From NCBI GenBank assembly GCA_948465965.1, contig CAOJYR010000010.1:1-49026 (forward strand): a DNA stretch of 49,026 nucleotides, written 5' to 3'. Numbering within the stretch: position 1 is the first letter of the stretch; each line of letters starts with the position of its first letter. The notes below the pieces were generated by a model that saw nothing but the letters and a program-made list of their open reading frames with translations, made no database searches and was not told the DNA's origin. The position numbers and the translations under genes are program-made. This stretch comes from an uncultured Mycoplasmatota bacterium. GTDB taxonomy: Bacteria > Bacillota_I > Bacilli_A > RF39 > UBA660. Shown one piece after another: positions 36,581 through 44,500 of this stretch.

Positions 36581-37747
36581 ATTAAAGGGAATGAAATTAT
36601 AGAAATAAAAAAATTACTTACTTCATTAAATAGAATGGATTTGTATTCTGATCGTATACTAACAAAAGATTATAATGAAGTAAAAAAAATATTGCAAATG
36701 CCGGAATGGAAAGAGGAAGAATTTCAGGGATTACTAACGTCAACTATATGGCATAGTAATTATGAAGATATAAAAAACATATTACAAATGCCGGAGTGGA
36801 AAGAGAAAAAATTTCAGAGATTACTAACATCAAGTATATGGCAAAGTAATTATGATGCAGTTGAAAAAGTATTACAAATGCCAGAATGGGAAGAAGAAAA
36901 ATTCCAGGGATTACTAACGTCAACTATATGGCATAGTAATTATGAAGATATAAAAAACATATTACAAATGCCAGAGTGGAAAGAGAAAAAATTTCAGAGA
37001 TTACTAACATCAAATATATGGAAAAGTAATTATGAAGATATAAAAAACATATTACAAATGCCAGAATGGAAAGAAGAAAAATTTCAAGGATTATTAACAT
37101 CAAGTATATGGCAAAGTAATTATGAAGATATAAAAAACATATTACAAATGCCAGAATGGGAAGAAGAAAAATTCCAGGGATTACTAACGTCAACTATATG
37201 GCATAGTAATTATGAAGATATAAAAAACATATTACAAATGCCAGAGTGGAAAGAGAAAAAATTTCAGAGATTACTAACATCAAATATATGGAAAAGTAAT
37301 TATGAAGATATAAAAAACATATTACAAATACCAGAGTGGAAGGAGGAAAAGTTTCAGGGATTACTAACACCAACTATATGGAATAATAGTTATCAAAGTG
37401 TAAAGACTAAATTATACTTACCATATTGGAGAGAAAATAAATATCAACATTTATTAGTGCCTTCTATCTTTTCAGTATCTTCTTCAAATATCATTAATGG
37501 TATAGAGTTATTAAAAAAATATGGTATTGATCAATTTATAACAAATAAATGTTTAAGATTTAAAACCGCAATGTTGGAAAAATTAATTGATTATATGATT
37601 GAAAATAAAATAGATTTAGTGACTATTAATAAAAAAACTGGTAATCCATGTTTAAATCCGATATTAAGTTGTGAAAAGGGTCAGTTAAAGAAAAAATATA
37701 ATATAGATATAAATGAAATAGAGAAGAAGGGTAGGCACGTTAGATAA
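36581..37747 (+). CDS. Tandem 30-residue repeat protein, apparent AUU start
   Basis: A 388-residue protein if read from ATT at 36581, where GGTGAT lies five bases upstream; the ATG at 36635 gives 370 residues and has no ribosome site. Most of the protein is nine 30-residue units (consensus NYEDIKNILQMPEWKEKKF then QRLLTSNIWKS) at exact 90-bp spacing, with the ninth degenerate (LPYW). Each unit looks like two short helices, suggesting an alpha-solenoid binding surface. The C-terminal about 110 residues are unique and end basic. The next gene starts on its stop codon. Family and function unknown. ATG 36574 leads to a stop after three codons. Confidence 0.75.
   Translation: MKGNEIIEIKKLLTSLNRMDLYSDRILTKDYNEVKKILQMPEWKEEEFQGLLTSTIWHSNYEDIKNILQMPEWKEKKFQRLLTSSIWQSNYDAVEKVLQMPEWEEEKFQGLLTSTIWHSNYEDIKNILQMPEWKEKKFQRLLTSNIWKSNYEDIKNILQMPEWKEEKFQGLLTSSIWQSNYEDIKNILQMPEWEEEKFQGLLTSTIWHSNYEDIKNILQMPEWKEKKFQRLLTSNIWKSNYEDIKNILQIPEWKEEKFQGLLTPTIWNNSYQSVKTKLYLPYWRENKYQHLLVPSIFSVSSSNIINGIELLKKYGIDQFITNKCLRFKTAMLEKLIDYMIENKIDLVTINKKTGNPCLNPILSCEKGQLKKKYNIDINEIEKKGRHVR
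36671..37430 (+). repeat. Nine 90-bp tandem coding repeats
   Basis: The MPEW-type codons start at 36698, 36788, 36878, 36968, 37058, 37148, 37238, 37328 (IPEW) and 37418 (LPYW), exactly 90 bp apart. DNA from about 36878 is almost identical to that from 37148, i.e. a 270-bp (three-unit) duplication, showing recent expansion. Confidence 0.95.
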
Positions 37748-40527: not shown

Positions 40528-41472
40528 TTATATTTTTACTTTTTTTCCTCGTTCACAGCGATTGCCCCAGGCATCTAAAAGTTCATTATCTTTTTTTACA
40601 CAAATTATTTCACAATTGTTTGGACATTTACCACAATATATTGATGTTGTTTTAAAATTATAGTCTGTTACATCAAAAGAAAACTCTATTTCTGGTTCTT
40701 TTTGTGAAAGAATTGCTACTCCTAGTGCTCCCATTAGATGTCCATTAGGATCAGTAATAATTTTTGTATTTAGAATGTTTTCGAAGGCTTTTACAACGCC
40801 GATATTTTTAGAGACTCCACCTTGAAAGATGATGGGTTCTTCTATTTTTTTGCCTTTTGCCACATTATTTAGATAGTTTAAAGCAACACTTTTACAAAGG
40901 CCTGCTATTATATCTTCTTTGGAGTGACCCATTTGTGCTTTATGTACTAAATCACTTTCTGCAAATACAGTACATCTTGCAGCAATAGGAGTAGGATTTT
41001 TACTAGTAAGAGCAATGGATCCAAAGTCTTCTACTTCAACATCAAGTCTTTTTGCTTGACTAGATAGAAAAGATCCAGTACCTGCAGCGCATAATGTGTT
41101 CATAGCATAATCGATTACAATACCGTCTCTAATTAGGATTATTTTAGAATCTTGCCCACCGATTTCCATAATTGTTCTAATATTAGGATATAAAGATAGG
41201 GTACCAATGGCGTGAGCAGTGATTTCGTTTTTGATAATATTAGCTTTTAGCATAGTACCAATTAATTTTCTAGCAGATCCAGTAGTTCCAACACCAACAA
41301 TTTTTACATCTTGTATTTGTTGTTTTAGTTCTTCTAAAACTTCTTTTACAGCATTGGTTGGATTTCCTTTTGTCCATAGGTAAGAACTTGCTAGTATATT
41401 GTTATTTTTATCAATGATTACTCCTTTTGTAGAAATGGAGCCAATATCAATTCCTAGATAAGCTTTAGTCAA
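40528..41472 (-). CDS. Acyl-CoA dehydratase activase (BadF/HgdC-type ATPase)
   Basis: A 314-residue ATPase of the BadF/BadG/BcrA/HgdC family, which uses ATP to push low-potential electrons from a [4Fe-4S] cluster into 2-hydroxyacyl-CoA dehydratases and related enzymes. The ASKHA phosphate-binding motif is GIDIGSISTKG (residues 7-17). The bridging-cluster cysteines are Cys128 (NTLCAAGTGSF) and Cys167 (AARCTVFAESD). A C-terminal extension with CGKCPNNCEIIC and a further Cys could hold an additional cluster. It overlaps the upstream gene by eight bases and is the last of a three-gene operon. Confidence 0.93.
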   Translation of the reverse strand: MTKAYLGIDIGSISTKGVIIDKNNNILASSYLWTKGNPTNAVKEVLEELKQQIQDVKIVGVGTTGSARKLIGTMLKANIIKNEITAHAIGTLSLYPNIRTIMEIGGQDSKIILIRDGIVIDYAMNTLCAAGTGSFLSSQAKRLDVEVEDFGSIALTSKNPTPIAARCTVFAESDLVHKAQMGHSKEDIIAGLCKSVALNYLNNVAKGKKIEEPIIFQGGVSKNIGVVKAFENILNTKIITDPNGHLMGALGVAILSQKEPEIEFSFDVTDYNFKTTSIYCGKCPNNCEIICVKKDNELLDAWGNRCERGKKVKI

Positions 41473-42535
41473 ATTTATCCCTCCTTATTGTTAATAAATC
41501 TTTGAATGCTTCAAGTCGTGTTTCAATTCCTTCTGTTGATGTTTCAGCATCATATGAGAAAAATATTATTGGTATATTATTATCTTCACACACCTTTTGA
41601 ATAATGGGTATGGCTCCGATTTCTGGGGTACAACCAAATGGTTTTATATGAATAATGCCATCATATTTTTTCTTAGATAGTTTTATAGAACGATAAACGT
41701 TATCTAGGCCGTCGGCTCCAAGGGTATATTTACAATATTTTTTTGCTACTCTTAACATATGATGTTTCATAAATATTTTTTGCCATAATAAGTATGAAAG
41801 GTTGGTGTATCTTTTTATTTCAATATTTTCCTTGGCTAAGTAGGTTTCTAAGAAATAATTGGAGTAAGGTTCCATAGATGTATACAGTTCTCCAATTACA
41901 CCAACTTTTAAATGTTTTTTTGGTTTGTTTAACTTTATCTTTTTAAATAGATGTTTATATTTAAAATATAAATAGGTTAGTTTTGTAATTGAATTTGTTT
42001 TTTCAAAAGACTTAAACATTCTTTTTTGTAAATTCAGGTGTGTATTTCTCTTTTTTTCAAATCCTATATTTTTTCTAATGATTATATCTATTTTATCCAT
42101 ATAAAAAATAAAGAATAGAGTGTAAATAACACTATGCATGAATTTAGGAAAAGTTAATTTTTTATTTAATTTCTTAAATAAGTTATATACTTCTTTTATA
42201 CGAATTCTATCCTTAGTGATTAGTTTATAAAATTCAAATTCATATCCTAAATCTTTTAGAATTGTTTCAGTTACTTCTGCATAGTAACGGTATCTACAAC
42301 CTCCACCTGCTGTGAATAAAATATTTGCTCCATTATCTAGGCTTTCTATAAAATTACCTAAATTATATTTAAATGGTATACATACGGAGTCAGGTGCGTT
42401 TTTTACTCCTAGCTCTAGTGTTTTTTTCGTAATGGGTGGGGCGGGTATAACTTCGAGGTTGGTAAGTTTTTTTAAAAGAAGGGATATGGGAAGGTAGTAA
42501 TTTCCTAAATGGGGAAAACTAATTACTTTTTTCAT
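41465..42535 (-). CDS. 2-hydroxyacyl-CoA dehydratase-like protein (DUF2229-related)
   Basis: A 356-residue protein resembling the component that in other Firmicutes is fused to or encoded beside the activase. Potential cluster ligands are Cys in NAPDSVCIPFKYNLG and TAGGGCRYRYYAE, and in the late segment IKPFGCTPEIGA. It is probably a redox partner or acceptor for the activase; a classical amino-acid-fermentation dehydratase is less likely. The final reaction is unknown. The GGAGG-type site before ATG 42535 lies inside the preceding gene, overlapping by 17 bases. Confidence 0.82.
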   Translation of the reverse strand: MKKVISFPHLGNYYLPISLLLKKLTNLEVIPAPPITKKTLELGVKNAPDSVCIPFKYNLGNFIESLDNGANILFTAGGGCRYRYYAEVTETILKDLGYEFEFYKLITKDRIRIKEVYNLFKKLNKKLTFPKFMHSVIYTLFFIFYMDKIDIIIRKNIGFEKKRNTHLNLQKRMFKSFEKTNSITKLTYLYFKYKHLFKKIKLNKPKKHLKVGVIGELYTSMEPYSNYFLETYLAKENIEIKRYTNLSYLLWQKIFMKHHMLRVAKKYCKYTLGADGLDNVYRSIKLSKKKYDGIIHIKPFGCTPEIGAIPIIQKVCEDNNIPIIFFSYDAETSTEGIETRLEAFKDLLTIRRDKFD

Positions 42536-43445
42536 ATCTTTCCTCCTTTAAGTTTTTAATAATATCAATAAAACTTTCAAGTCTTGTTATTATTCCAGCT
42601 TCACTATTTAAATCTTCGAAAATTAAGGAAATAACAGGAATATTTTTAATTTTTCTACTAATTAGTTCATTTGATAGGGAGTCTGGACCACAAGGAAAGG
42701 CTGATATTAGAATAATTCCATCAACTTTATCTTTATAATAGTTGATATTTGCCATTACTTCTTTATTGTGGGTCCAATGAATATCGGTTGATAAGCATTC
42801 ACATTCCTTATCAATAATAGAATGGTTTATTTTATTACTATAAATTATAGTGATGTTATTTTGTTTTAGGAAATCAATGACAACTTTGCCAATTAAATCA
42901 TCATATAAATTGTATGGATGTCCAGCAAGAAGAATTTTTAAGTTGTTTGTTTGAAGATTATTTTCTTGCTCTTTTTCTTGTTTGATTCTCTTCATTAAAG
43001 ATATTTTTTCGGCATATTTATAGGCTTGGTATGTTTTTATGTAAGAAAATCCTAATGTTTCTCCTAATTTTAAAAATCCTAATAATTTATAATTGTGCGT
43101 AGTTAAGTCTATATTATAATTTATTATTTCAACATCAAAGAGATTGTTTACTAAATCATATAAGACATTGAAGTTAGTACAGACTTGTTCATTTTTTTTA
43201 ATTGAATATAATCTTGGTACTAGAATATAGTCACATTTATCTTTTAAGTTCGTGATGTGTCCTAAATATAGTTTTAATGAAAGACATGCTTCTGAGTTGG
43301 CAAGCCTGGTTCCATCTTCTAATATTTTTTTGTTACTTATATCACTAATAACTGTTTTTACTCCTAATTTTTTAAAAAATTCTAACCATAAGTCTTTATC
43401 ATAATAGTATAATAGTGCTCTTGGTATTCCTATCGTTTTTTTGAT
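42519..43445 (-). CDS. DUF2229/2-hydroxyacyl-CoA dehydratase-like protein, apparent AUC start
   Basis: An open frame of 308 codons from ATC at 43445. The N-terminus then reads MKKTIGIPRALLYYY, the expected beginning of this family (…IGIPRALLYY), followed by ANSEACLSLKLYLGH with a likely cluster Cys. The first standard start codon in frame is ATG 42995, which would give a 158-residue fragment missing this conserved half. AAGGATGTG lies just upstream of the ATC. An A7 run close by (43436-43442) offers an alternative: one extra A would join a GTG at 43453. The C-terminal half contains LLAGHPYNLYDD and SAFPCGPDS. First gene of the operon. Confidence 0.8.
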   Translation of the reverse strand: MKKTIGIPRALLYYYDKDLWLEFFKKLGVKTVISDISNKKILEDGTRLANSEACLSLKLYLGHITNLKDKCDYILVPRLYSIKKNEQVCTNFNVLYDLVNNLFDVEIINYNIDLTTHNYKLLGFLKLGETLGFSYIKTYQAYKYAEKISLMKRIKQEKEQENNLQTNNLKILLAGHPYNLYDDLIGKVVIDFLKQNNITIIYSNKINHSIIDKECECLSTDIHWTHNKEVMANINYYKDKVDGIILISAFPCGPDSLSNELISRKIKNIPVISLIFEDLNSEAGIITRLESFIDIIKNLKEERYEKSN

Positions 43446-43569
43446 ATTATCACATCCTTATTAGATCGTATGTTTTTTTGATTCAATAAATAATGGTTTT
43501 CATTCGACAAAATATTGGTTATTAAATAAATTTGGAGTTAGGTTAGCATTTGTAAATCATAAAGTAATG

Positions 43570-43627: not shown

Positions 43628-44500
43628 ATGAGAATACATAAAGAGAATAATAGACAATCAATAAGTGGAGAGGCTACATTACGTTTATTAAGAGAATATA
43701 AAGAAAACCACAGTATGGAAATTAGAAATGAAATTGTTTCCAACTACTATTACTTAGTAAACTCAGTTGCGAAAAGTTATGCTAATTATACTGGGATAAG
43801 TATAGGGGAATTAGAAAGCTATGGTAGTGAGGGATTAATTTTAGCTGTTGAGAAGTTTGATGTAAATAATGGAAATTCTTTTATACCTTATGCTTTATCT
43901 TATATTAAAGGATATATTTTGAGAGGGATACCTGAGATTCAAGGCTTTTCACGTGGTGTTTTTTTTAGTTGTTATGTTACAGCTTTAAGAATTGTTGAAG
44001 AAAAATATAATCAATCAATCTTTGGAAATATTGATATGTTGGATGAAGTATGTGAGTTGATAAAAAATATGAGCGGATTATCGCAAAAGAGTATTGCTAA
44101 TGGAAAGAAGAAAATATTATTTCTTATGTCTGATACTATTAAGGCTCATAAACAGGATACTAAATGTATAGATGATAATAGTTTATATAAGATTTTAGAT
44201 GATGATTATACTGATGATCTAAGAAAAGATATTAATCTAGTATTAGGTAGTTTGAGAGATAGAGATAGGAAAGTAATAGAACTTAGATATGGCTTAAATG
44301 GTAATGAAGTATACAGTTGTAATGAAGTTGCTGCTATTTTTCATGTTTCTGATAGAAGAATTAGAAAGATTGAGCAAAGAGTATTACGCACATTAAGATA
44401 TACAAACATAGCTAAAGTGTTATCTCCTTATTTAGAATATGATTGCTCTGAGTATGACTTTAATCCGGCTATCCAAACTGGAAAACAAAAATGTAAGTAG
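43628..44500 (+). CDS. Divergent sigma-70 family RNA polymerase sigma factor
   Basis: A 290-residue sigma factor. Region 2 is at about residues 30-105 (LVNSVAKSYANYTG, ELESYGSEGLILAVEKFD, FIPYALSYIKGYILRG) and region 4 at about 200-262 (LRDRDRKVIELRYGLNG, then a helix-turn-helix CNEVAAIFHVSDRRIRKIEQRVLRTLR). The stretch between is poorly conserved and region 1.1 is absent. It does not match SigA, SigF, SigG, SigE/K or SigB in the promoter-reading helix as I know them. No anti-sigma gene is adjacent. It is transcribed divergently from the dehydratase-like operon, which it might control. AAGAAGGGG precedes the ATG. Confidence 0.85.
   Translation: MRIHKENNRQSISGEATLRLLREYKENHSMEIRNEIVSNYYYLVNSVAKSYANYTGISIGELESYGSEGLILAVEKFDVNNGNSFIPYALSYIKGYILRGIPEIQGFSRGVFFSCYVTALRIVEEKYNQSIFGNIDMLDEVCELIKNMSGLSQKSIANGKKKILFLMSDTIKAHKQDTKCIDDNSLYKILDDDYTDDLRKDINLVLGSLRDRDRKVIELRYGLNGNEVYSCNEVAAIFHVSDRRIRKIEQRVLRTLRYTNIAKVLSPYLEYDCSEYDFNPAIQTGKQKCK

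Follow-up and report, generated by a model that had tools for sequence, protein, structure and literature searches.

A putative AUC start codon behind an extended Shine–Dalgarno sequence, conserved in a predicted Fe–S protein gene of an uncultured Bacilli family

The gene 1-2-3 operon

The window analysed here, a 49,026-nucleotide stretch of contig CAOJYR010000010.1 from an uncultured Mycoplasmatota bacterium, carries on its minus strand three genes whose order is kept in nearly all the relatives compared. Gene 1 (42519–43445) encodes a 308 amino acid protein with a DUF2229 domain (PF09989) and an HGD-D-like C-terminus, predicted to adopt the double-cubane/2-hydroxyacyl-CoA dehydratase fold. 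Its end is overlapped by gene 2 (41465–42535, minus strand), which encodes a 356 amino acid HGD-D-like protein (PF06050) and has a canonical ATG preceded by an ordinary Shine–Dalgarno (SD) sequence. Gene 3 (40528–41472, minus strand) encodes a BcrAD/BadFG-type acyl-CoA dehydratase activase ATPase and starts with TTG in the window, with ATT taking its place in relatives L007 and L061. The start of gene 2 is ATG in nearly all relatives whose gene 1 has an AUH start (AUC, AUU or AUA), the exception being GTG in L063.

Gene 1 matches PF09989 with an E-value of 1.7e-41 and a score of 142.7 bits (cut-off 29.4), and its C-terminus scores 21.1 bits against HGD-D, under the cut-off of 28.4. An AlphaFold model of the full-length protein has a mean pLDDT of 93.5, with the first strand formed by residues 4–7, and the best-matching folds are those of 6eno (DCCP; Foldseek E-value 3.5e-8, TM 0.56), 3o3n (2-hydroxyisocaproyl-CoA dehydratase, HadBC) and 8s02 (benzoyl-CoA reductase, BzdNO). 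A sequence search of the PDB with a gene 1 profile gave no match. Three cysteines (C54, C89 and C252) are invariant in 54 relatives. In its predicted fold, these three cysteines and the presence of an activase ATPase gene in the operon, gene 1 resembles the double-cubane cluster proteins and the 2-hydroxyacyl-CoA dehydratase/activase systems, but it differs from them in belonging to the DUF2229 subfamily and in being only 10–12% identical to the solved proteins. The gene 1 product is predicted to be an Fe–S enzyme component.

The probable start codon of gene 1 and its leader

Around the start of gene 1 the minus strand reads TAA (43460–43458) GGA TGT GAT AAT ATC (43445–43443) AAA AAA ACG ATA GGA ATA CCA. 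An earlier sequence-only reading had proposed that the ATC is the start codon, at the point where proteins of this family usually begin, and reading the minus strand again bears out its description of the locus: the frame is open from 43457, ends at TAG (42521–42519) and has no ATG, GTG or TTG before the ATG at 42995, 150 codons in, and the coordinates, the tract of seven A residues (43442–43436) and the upstream AAGGATGTG were all correctly given. The ATC (43443–43445, minus strand) is preceded, three nucleotides away, by an extended SD sequence, AGGATGTGAT (43449–43458, minus strand), which matches nine of the ten bases of AGGAGGTGAT, the complement of the anti-SD. The calculated SD energy at the ATC is -9.9 kcal/mol in a scan of the bacterium's own genome (-11.1 kcal/mol when computed with a slightly different leader window), against -0.1 kcal/mol at ATG 42995.

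Relatives were gathered from whole-genome searches and from GTDB contigs. Their proteins begin exactly where the ATC predicts, and the homologous codon is ATC in eight, ATT in seven and ATA in three of 18 distinct sequences, the window included. The proteins with AUH starts are 58–99% identical in pairs and come from many separate assemblies. In most of these members an in-frame TAA or TGA lies at most a few codons upstream of the AUH codon; in L005 and L036 the upstream open stretch is longer, yet holds no canonical start codon. The alignment of related genomes that had been called for thus answers both of its questions: the Ile codon is kept at the homologous position and the length of the A tract is not.

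A maximum-likelihood tree places all 18 AUH members in a single clade of 21, with support of 100/99. The other three members of the clade are L061, with ATC or else a GTG without an SD, and L006 and L034, with ATG, whilst the sister and neighbouring clades and nearly all other relatives start with ATG. This pattern fits one gain of the AUH start followed by one or two reversions to ATG. The sequence-only reading would have given way to relatives with an ATG or GTG in frame at the same place; such codons were found only in L006/L056 and L034 (ATG) and in L061 (GTG), the ATG sequences being nested within the AUH clade and the GTG of L061 being without a usable SD, so that the proposal stands for the clade with these exceptions.

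A near-complete match to the anti-SD, AGGANGTGAT, is maintained in the clade three bases ahead of the AUH codon, and the leader takes the form AGGA-N-GTGAT-NNN, or close to it, in all 18 AUH members. Of these members, 18/18 have GTGAT at -8 to -4 and 16/18 have T at -1; among relatives with canonical starts the figures are 8/43 and 21/43. A U at -1 can lengthen the pairing between the initiator tRNA anticodon and the codon, and aids weak start codons. The mean energy of the anti-SD duplex is -11.2 kcal/mol for the AUH members, -9.95 kcal/mol for close ATG relatives and -8.2 kcal/mol for distant relatives with canonical starts. Comparison of four loci with Rfam turned up no leader RNA family.

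Could the ATC simply be a mistake, with G as the true third base (ATG) or with an A missing? The window does belong to a draft assembly of 45 contigs, but the same leader stands before ATC, ATT or ATA in 17 further distinct sequences taken from many separate assemblies. For the clade as a whole these independent assemblies refute a sequencing or assembly error, and there is next to no chance that one accounts for the ATC in the window.

A second possibility raised with the ATC was that a base had been lost from the A7 tract, or that the tract is a phase-variable switch. In its fullest form this explanation has translation start at the GTG at 43453–43451, eight bases upstream and out of frame, and reach the gene 1 frame by programmed or transcriptional slippage, with A7 as the slippery site. 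The tract is present in the window, the out-of-frame GTG is found in all 18 AUH members, where it forms part of the SD, and in L061 a GTG lies in frame. That in-frame GTG, however, has an SD energy of only -1.5 kcal/mol, and the AGGA lies one base from the GTG, too close to serve it. The tract itself is absent from, for example, L005 (ATT AGA AAA ACT), L035 (ATT AAG AAA GTT) and L037 (ATC AAA ACA ACA). Since A7 is missing from most relatives whilst the relation of the GTG frame to gene 1 is the same in all 18, no base can have been lost. In the members with ATA (L063, L039 and L042) the GTG frame runs for three codons before it closes and contains no homopolymer, and several other members have no tract of six or more A or T residues in that frame. 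The ATA members and the lack of conservation of A7 together rule out both frameshifting and phase variation, and slippage from the GTG is very improbable as the origin of the gene 1 product.

It might also be argued that gene 1 is a decaying pseudogene, or that only its C-terminal half is made, from ATG 42995. A gene caller limited to canonical starts does indeed return such a product, of 158 amino acids, and the prediction that half of the protein and a candidate cluster cysteine would be lost in this way holds good: a start at ATG 42995 drops the first strand and both C54 and C89. The N-terminal half is, however, as conserved as the remainder, with G6, S34, C54, R78 and C89 invariant, and for most relatives the matched frame has no stops. 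ATG 42995 has no SD, and the first canonical codon is not kept at its position but varies from codon 10 to codon 260 across the AUH members. The missing SD and the conserved N-terminal half rule out the internal start, and we give little credence to either form of this explanation.

Initiation on AUH codons might depend on a dedicated initiator tRNA, as the presence of all three Ile codons at the start could suggest. A tRNA scan of 400 kb, one third of the genome, found no AUH-reading initiator tRNA. It is well documented that the ordinary initiator tRNA can start on near-cognate codons, so a dedicated tRNA is not needed, and we regard its existence as most improbable.

A more serious alternative is that the AUH start is real yet effectively neutral, the strong SD making the third base of the codon irrelevant and leaving it to drift with no regulatory role. 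Two members of the clade have ATG, which shows that the weak start is not indispensable, and two ATG among 20 is not below the drift expectation; G makes up only 4% of third positions at fourfold sites in these genes, so the scarcity of ATG is not evidence of selection. Against drift, ATG has been retained in the sister clades and in almost every other relative, and ATC is over-represented and ATA under-represented in comparison with Ile codon and fourfold-site usage in the same genes. ATC makes up 12% of the internal Ile codons of these genes and 8/18 of their starts (p = 7e-4, ignoring phylogeny, the AUH-start species not being independent samples), which implies that the start codon does not behave as an ordinary internal Ile codon. 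In Staphylococcus aureus reporters, moreover, AUA or AUU costs 70–90% of output despite an extended SD (PMC13009471). We consider neutrality unlikely.

Taken as a whole, the observations are very probably best explained by initiation at the AUC at 43445–43443, with the extended SD compensating for the weak codon. As judged by comparison among relatives, the weak start in gene 1 of these uncultured gut-type Bacilli is real, evolutionarily maintained and missed by standard gene finders.

Promoter elements and a proposed mode of control

Upstream of the leader lies a -10-like element, CATACGAT (CATANNNT; 43465–43472, minus strand), which implies a leader of about 13 nt. CATANNNT is found within 50 nt upstream of the gene in 43/62 family members, compared with 4.7 in shuffled sequences, and in most close relatives its position is about -27. 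Were CATANNNT the -10 element, the leader of the transcript would hold little beyond the SD. Thirty-seven nucleotides upstream of this element is a Spo0A-box-like site, TGTCGAA (43503–43509, minus strand); the Spo0A box consensus is TGNCGAA (PMC7643835). TGTCGA is found 35–37 nt upstream of CATANNNT in 20/27 of the closest relatives. A Spo0A_C domain is encoded in 13/14 genomes, and SigE-like sporulation sigma factors score near, but under, the curated cut-off. The fixed spacing of TGTCGAA, together with Spo0A and a SigE-like factor, suggests sporulation-type control in this uncultured Bacilli family. In the window, a divergent gene for a sigma-70-family factor with regions 2 and 4 (43628–44500, plus strand) adjoins the Spo0A-box-like site; in the other relatives compared, the operon had no such neighbour.

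These features can be combined into a model. The operon is probably turned on by a Spo0A-type regulator, from a promoter that would leave about 13 nt of leader, in essence the SD alone. The fMet initiator tRNA would then decode AUC, AUU or AUA as a near-cognate start, with the long SD–anti-SD helix making up for the weak codon, and initiation of gene 1 would be low relative to that of genes 2 and 3, which are mostly on ordinary starts. By analogy with the systems described below, the most likely role of the weak start is to hold gene 1 below genes 2 and 3, be it to set their stoichiometry or to respond to conditions. Near-cognate codons of this kind are rejected by IF3, and infC apparently uses the same device, for which reasons the output of gene 1 probably follows IF3 or the state of initiation.

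Weak starts paired with extended SDs are known from other bacteria. In S. aureus, infC, ccpN, cvfC1 and citZ have AUA or AUU starts with extended SDs, and the three such starts tested reach about 10% of the output of AUG when the medium is poor and as much as 30% when it is rich (PMC13009471). The infC gene, which encodes IF3, shares with gene 1 an AUU, AUC or AUA start behind an extended SD, and apparently does so in the genomes studied here; gene 1, however, encodes no translation factor, so that only sensitivity to IF3, and no direct feedback loop, would be expected. Closer parallels are ccpN of S. aureus and Bacillus subtilis (AUA) and cvfC1 of S. aureus (AUU), which share a conserved non-canonical start and an extended, start-proximal SD complementary to the 16S rRNA tail (PMC13009471). 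cvfC1 is, like gene 1, the first gene of an operon. In contrast to both, gene 1 encodes a predicted Fe–S enzyme component, has AUC as its commonest start and belongs to an uncultured lineage. Escherichia coli pcnB, with its AUU start, is a different gene but, as it is presented in the citing paper, likewise a non-translation gene that is kept scarce (Binns and Masters 2002, cited in PMC13009471). A further case is Streptomyces sigR, whose GTC start is subject to repression by IF3 and holds SigR below its co-transcribed partner (PMC5472188). sigR thus shares with gene 1 a non-canonical start that would limit one protein relative to its partner, but the codon is GUC rather than AUH, the product is a sigma factor, and the repression by IF3 demonstrated there is only inferred for gene 1.

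The device itself, a weak start with an extended SD, is known; what is new in relation to the literature compared is the class of gene, the lineage and how often AUC occurs. To our knowledge, conserved non-canonical starts are established for only a handful of bacterial genes. Gene 1 adds a well-supported conserved case in which AUC is commonest, and it points to further ones, in comEA, C39 exporters and nucleases, in a large uncultured family. There is also a practical consequence, in that callers limited to ATG, GTG and TTG truncate such proteins arbitrarily; here half of a predicted Fe–S protein is lost, together with two candidate cluster ligands.

Probable AUH starts in other genes of these genomes

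In 13/13 genomes for which the start region of infC was displayed, GGAGGTG is followed by ATC or ATA, with an in-frame ATG or GTG a few codons upstream; infC thus apparently starts at AUC or AUA, as judged from the SD spacing. The comEA gene of the window's genome (L140, G000:C3:41709-42404) has ATT behind GAGGAGGTG. ATA or ATT follows GGAGGTG at comEA in six genomes, the window's and G053, G059, G250, G374 and G434, and ATG is used in six; ATA or ATT starts are also found at comEA in L163, L176 and L177. The comEA leaders carry a conserved (T)TCGAATAATAA directly before the SD, which resembles a competence-sigma -10 (CIN-box-like). G000, G053, G059, G250, G374 and G434 have AUH in both gene 1 and comEA, and in G156 and G071, where gene 1 has ATG, comEA has ATG as well. 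These parallel states may stem from a change at the level of the lineage and not from drift in each gene separately.

A family-wide pattern search compared perfect AGGAGGTGAT followed by NNN-ATH with the same sequence followed by NNN-TTH. Perfect AGGAGGTGATNNN followed by ATH stands at the head of an open reading frame without an upstream canonical start at 12/30 loci, as against 1/30 for the TTH control (Fisher p 0.001), the 12 loci including comEA, Peptidase C39 exporters, PDDEXK_2 nucleases, an MvaI/BcnI-type restriction enzyme, DUF1016 and SSB. Across 291 genomes the raw count of AGGAGGTGATNNNATH does not exceed that of a reversed-pattern control; AUH is set apart from TTH only by its open-reading-frame context, not by how often the pattern occurs. 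A 449 kb scan of the window's own genome for non-canonical codons that follow a strong SD and precede the first canonical start gave AUH no prominence overall, because many of its matches are merely ATH–ATG neighbours.

These loci raise the possibility, which we put forward tentatively and regard as rather doubtful at present, that AUH with a full extended SD marks a translationally defined set of genes whose output would move together with IF3 or initiation fidelity, layered upon transcriptional control of the Spo0A or competence type. The set proposed comprises infC, comEA, the C39 bacteriocin-type exporters, the PDDEXK_2 nucleases, the restriction and SSB genes and the Fe–S operon. Of the leads to emerge, the wider pattern in genes for competence, bacteriocin export and nucleases is the most interesting, and comparative genomics can ask which genes stay on weak starts and whether they are jointly responsive to IF3.

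Peptidase C39 ABC exporter genes with ATA or ATC behind perfect AGGAGGTGAT are found at L166, L179 and L186, each in a genome of a different genus. PDDEXK_2 (Rpn-type) nuclease-transposase genes with ATA, ATT or ATC and extended SDs are found at L125:6595-7416 (plus strand), L097, L162 and L165; one of these AUH genes is in the window's genome, and L097 is assigned by sequence resemblance only. Genome G312 has seven copies of AGGAGGTGATARAATC, at L162 and six further sites, and the copy examined heads a PDDEXK_2 gene, so that a multicopy family starting at AUC is possible. Within the window itself, a gene for a repeat protein (36581–37747, plus strand) has a frame that is open upstream of its first ATG, at 36635, which has no SD, and a further AUU start may lie at 36581, in AGGACGGTGATGGCTT-ATT.
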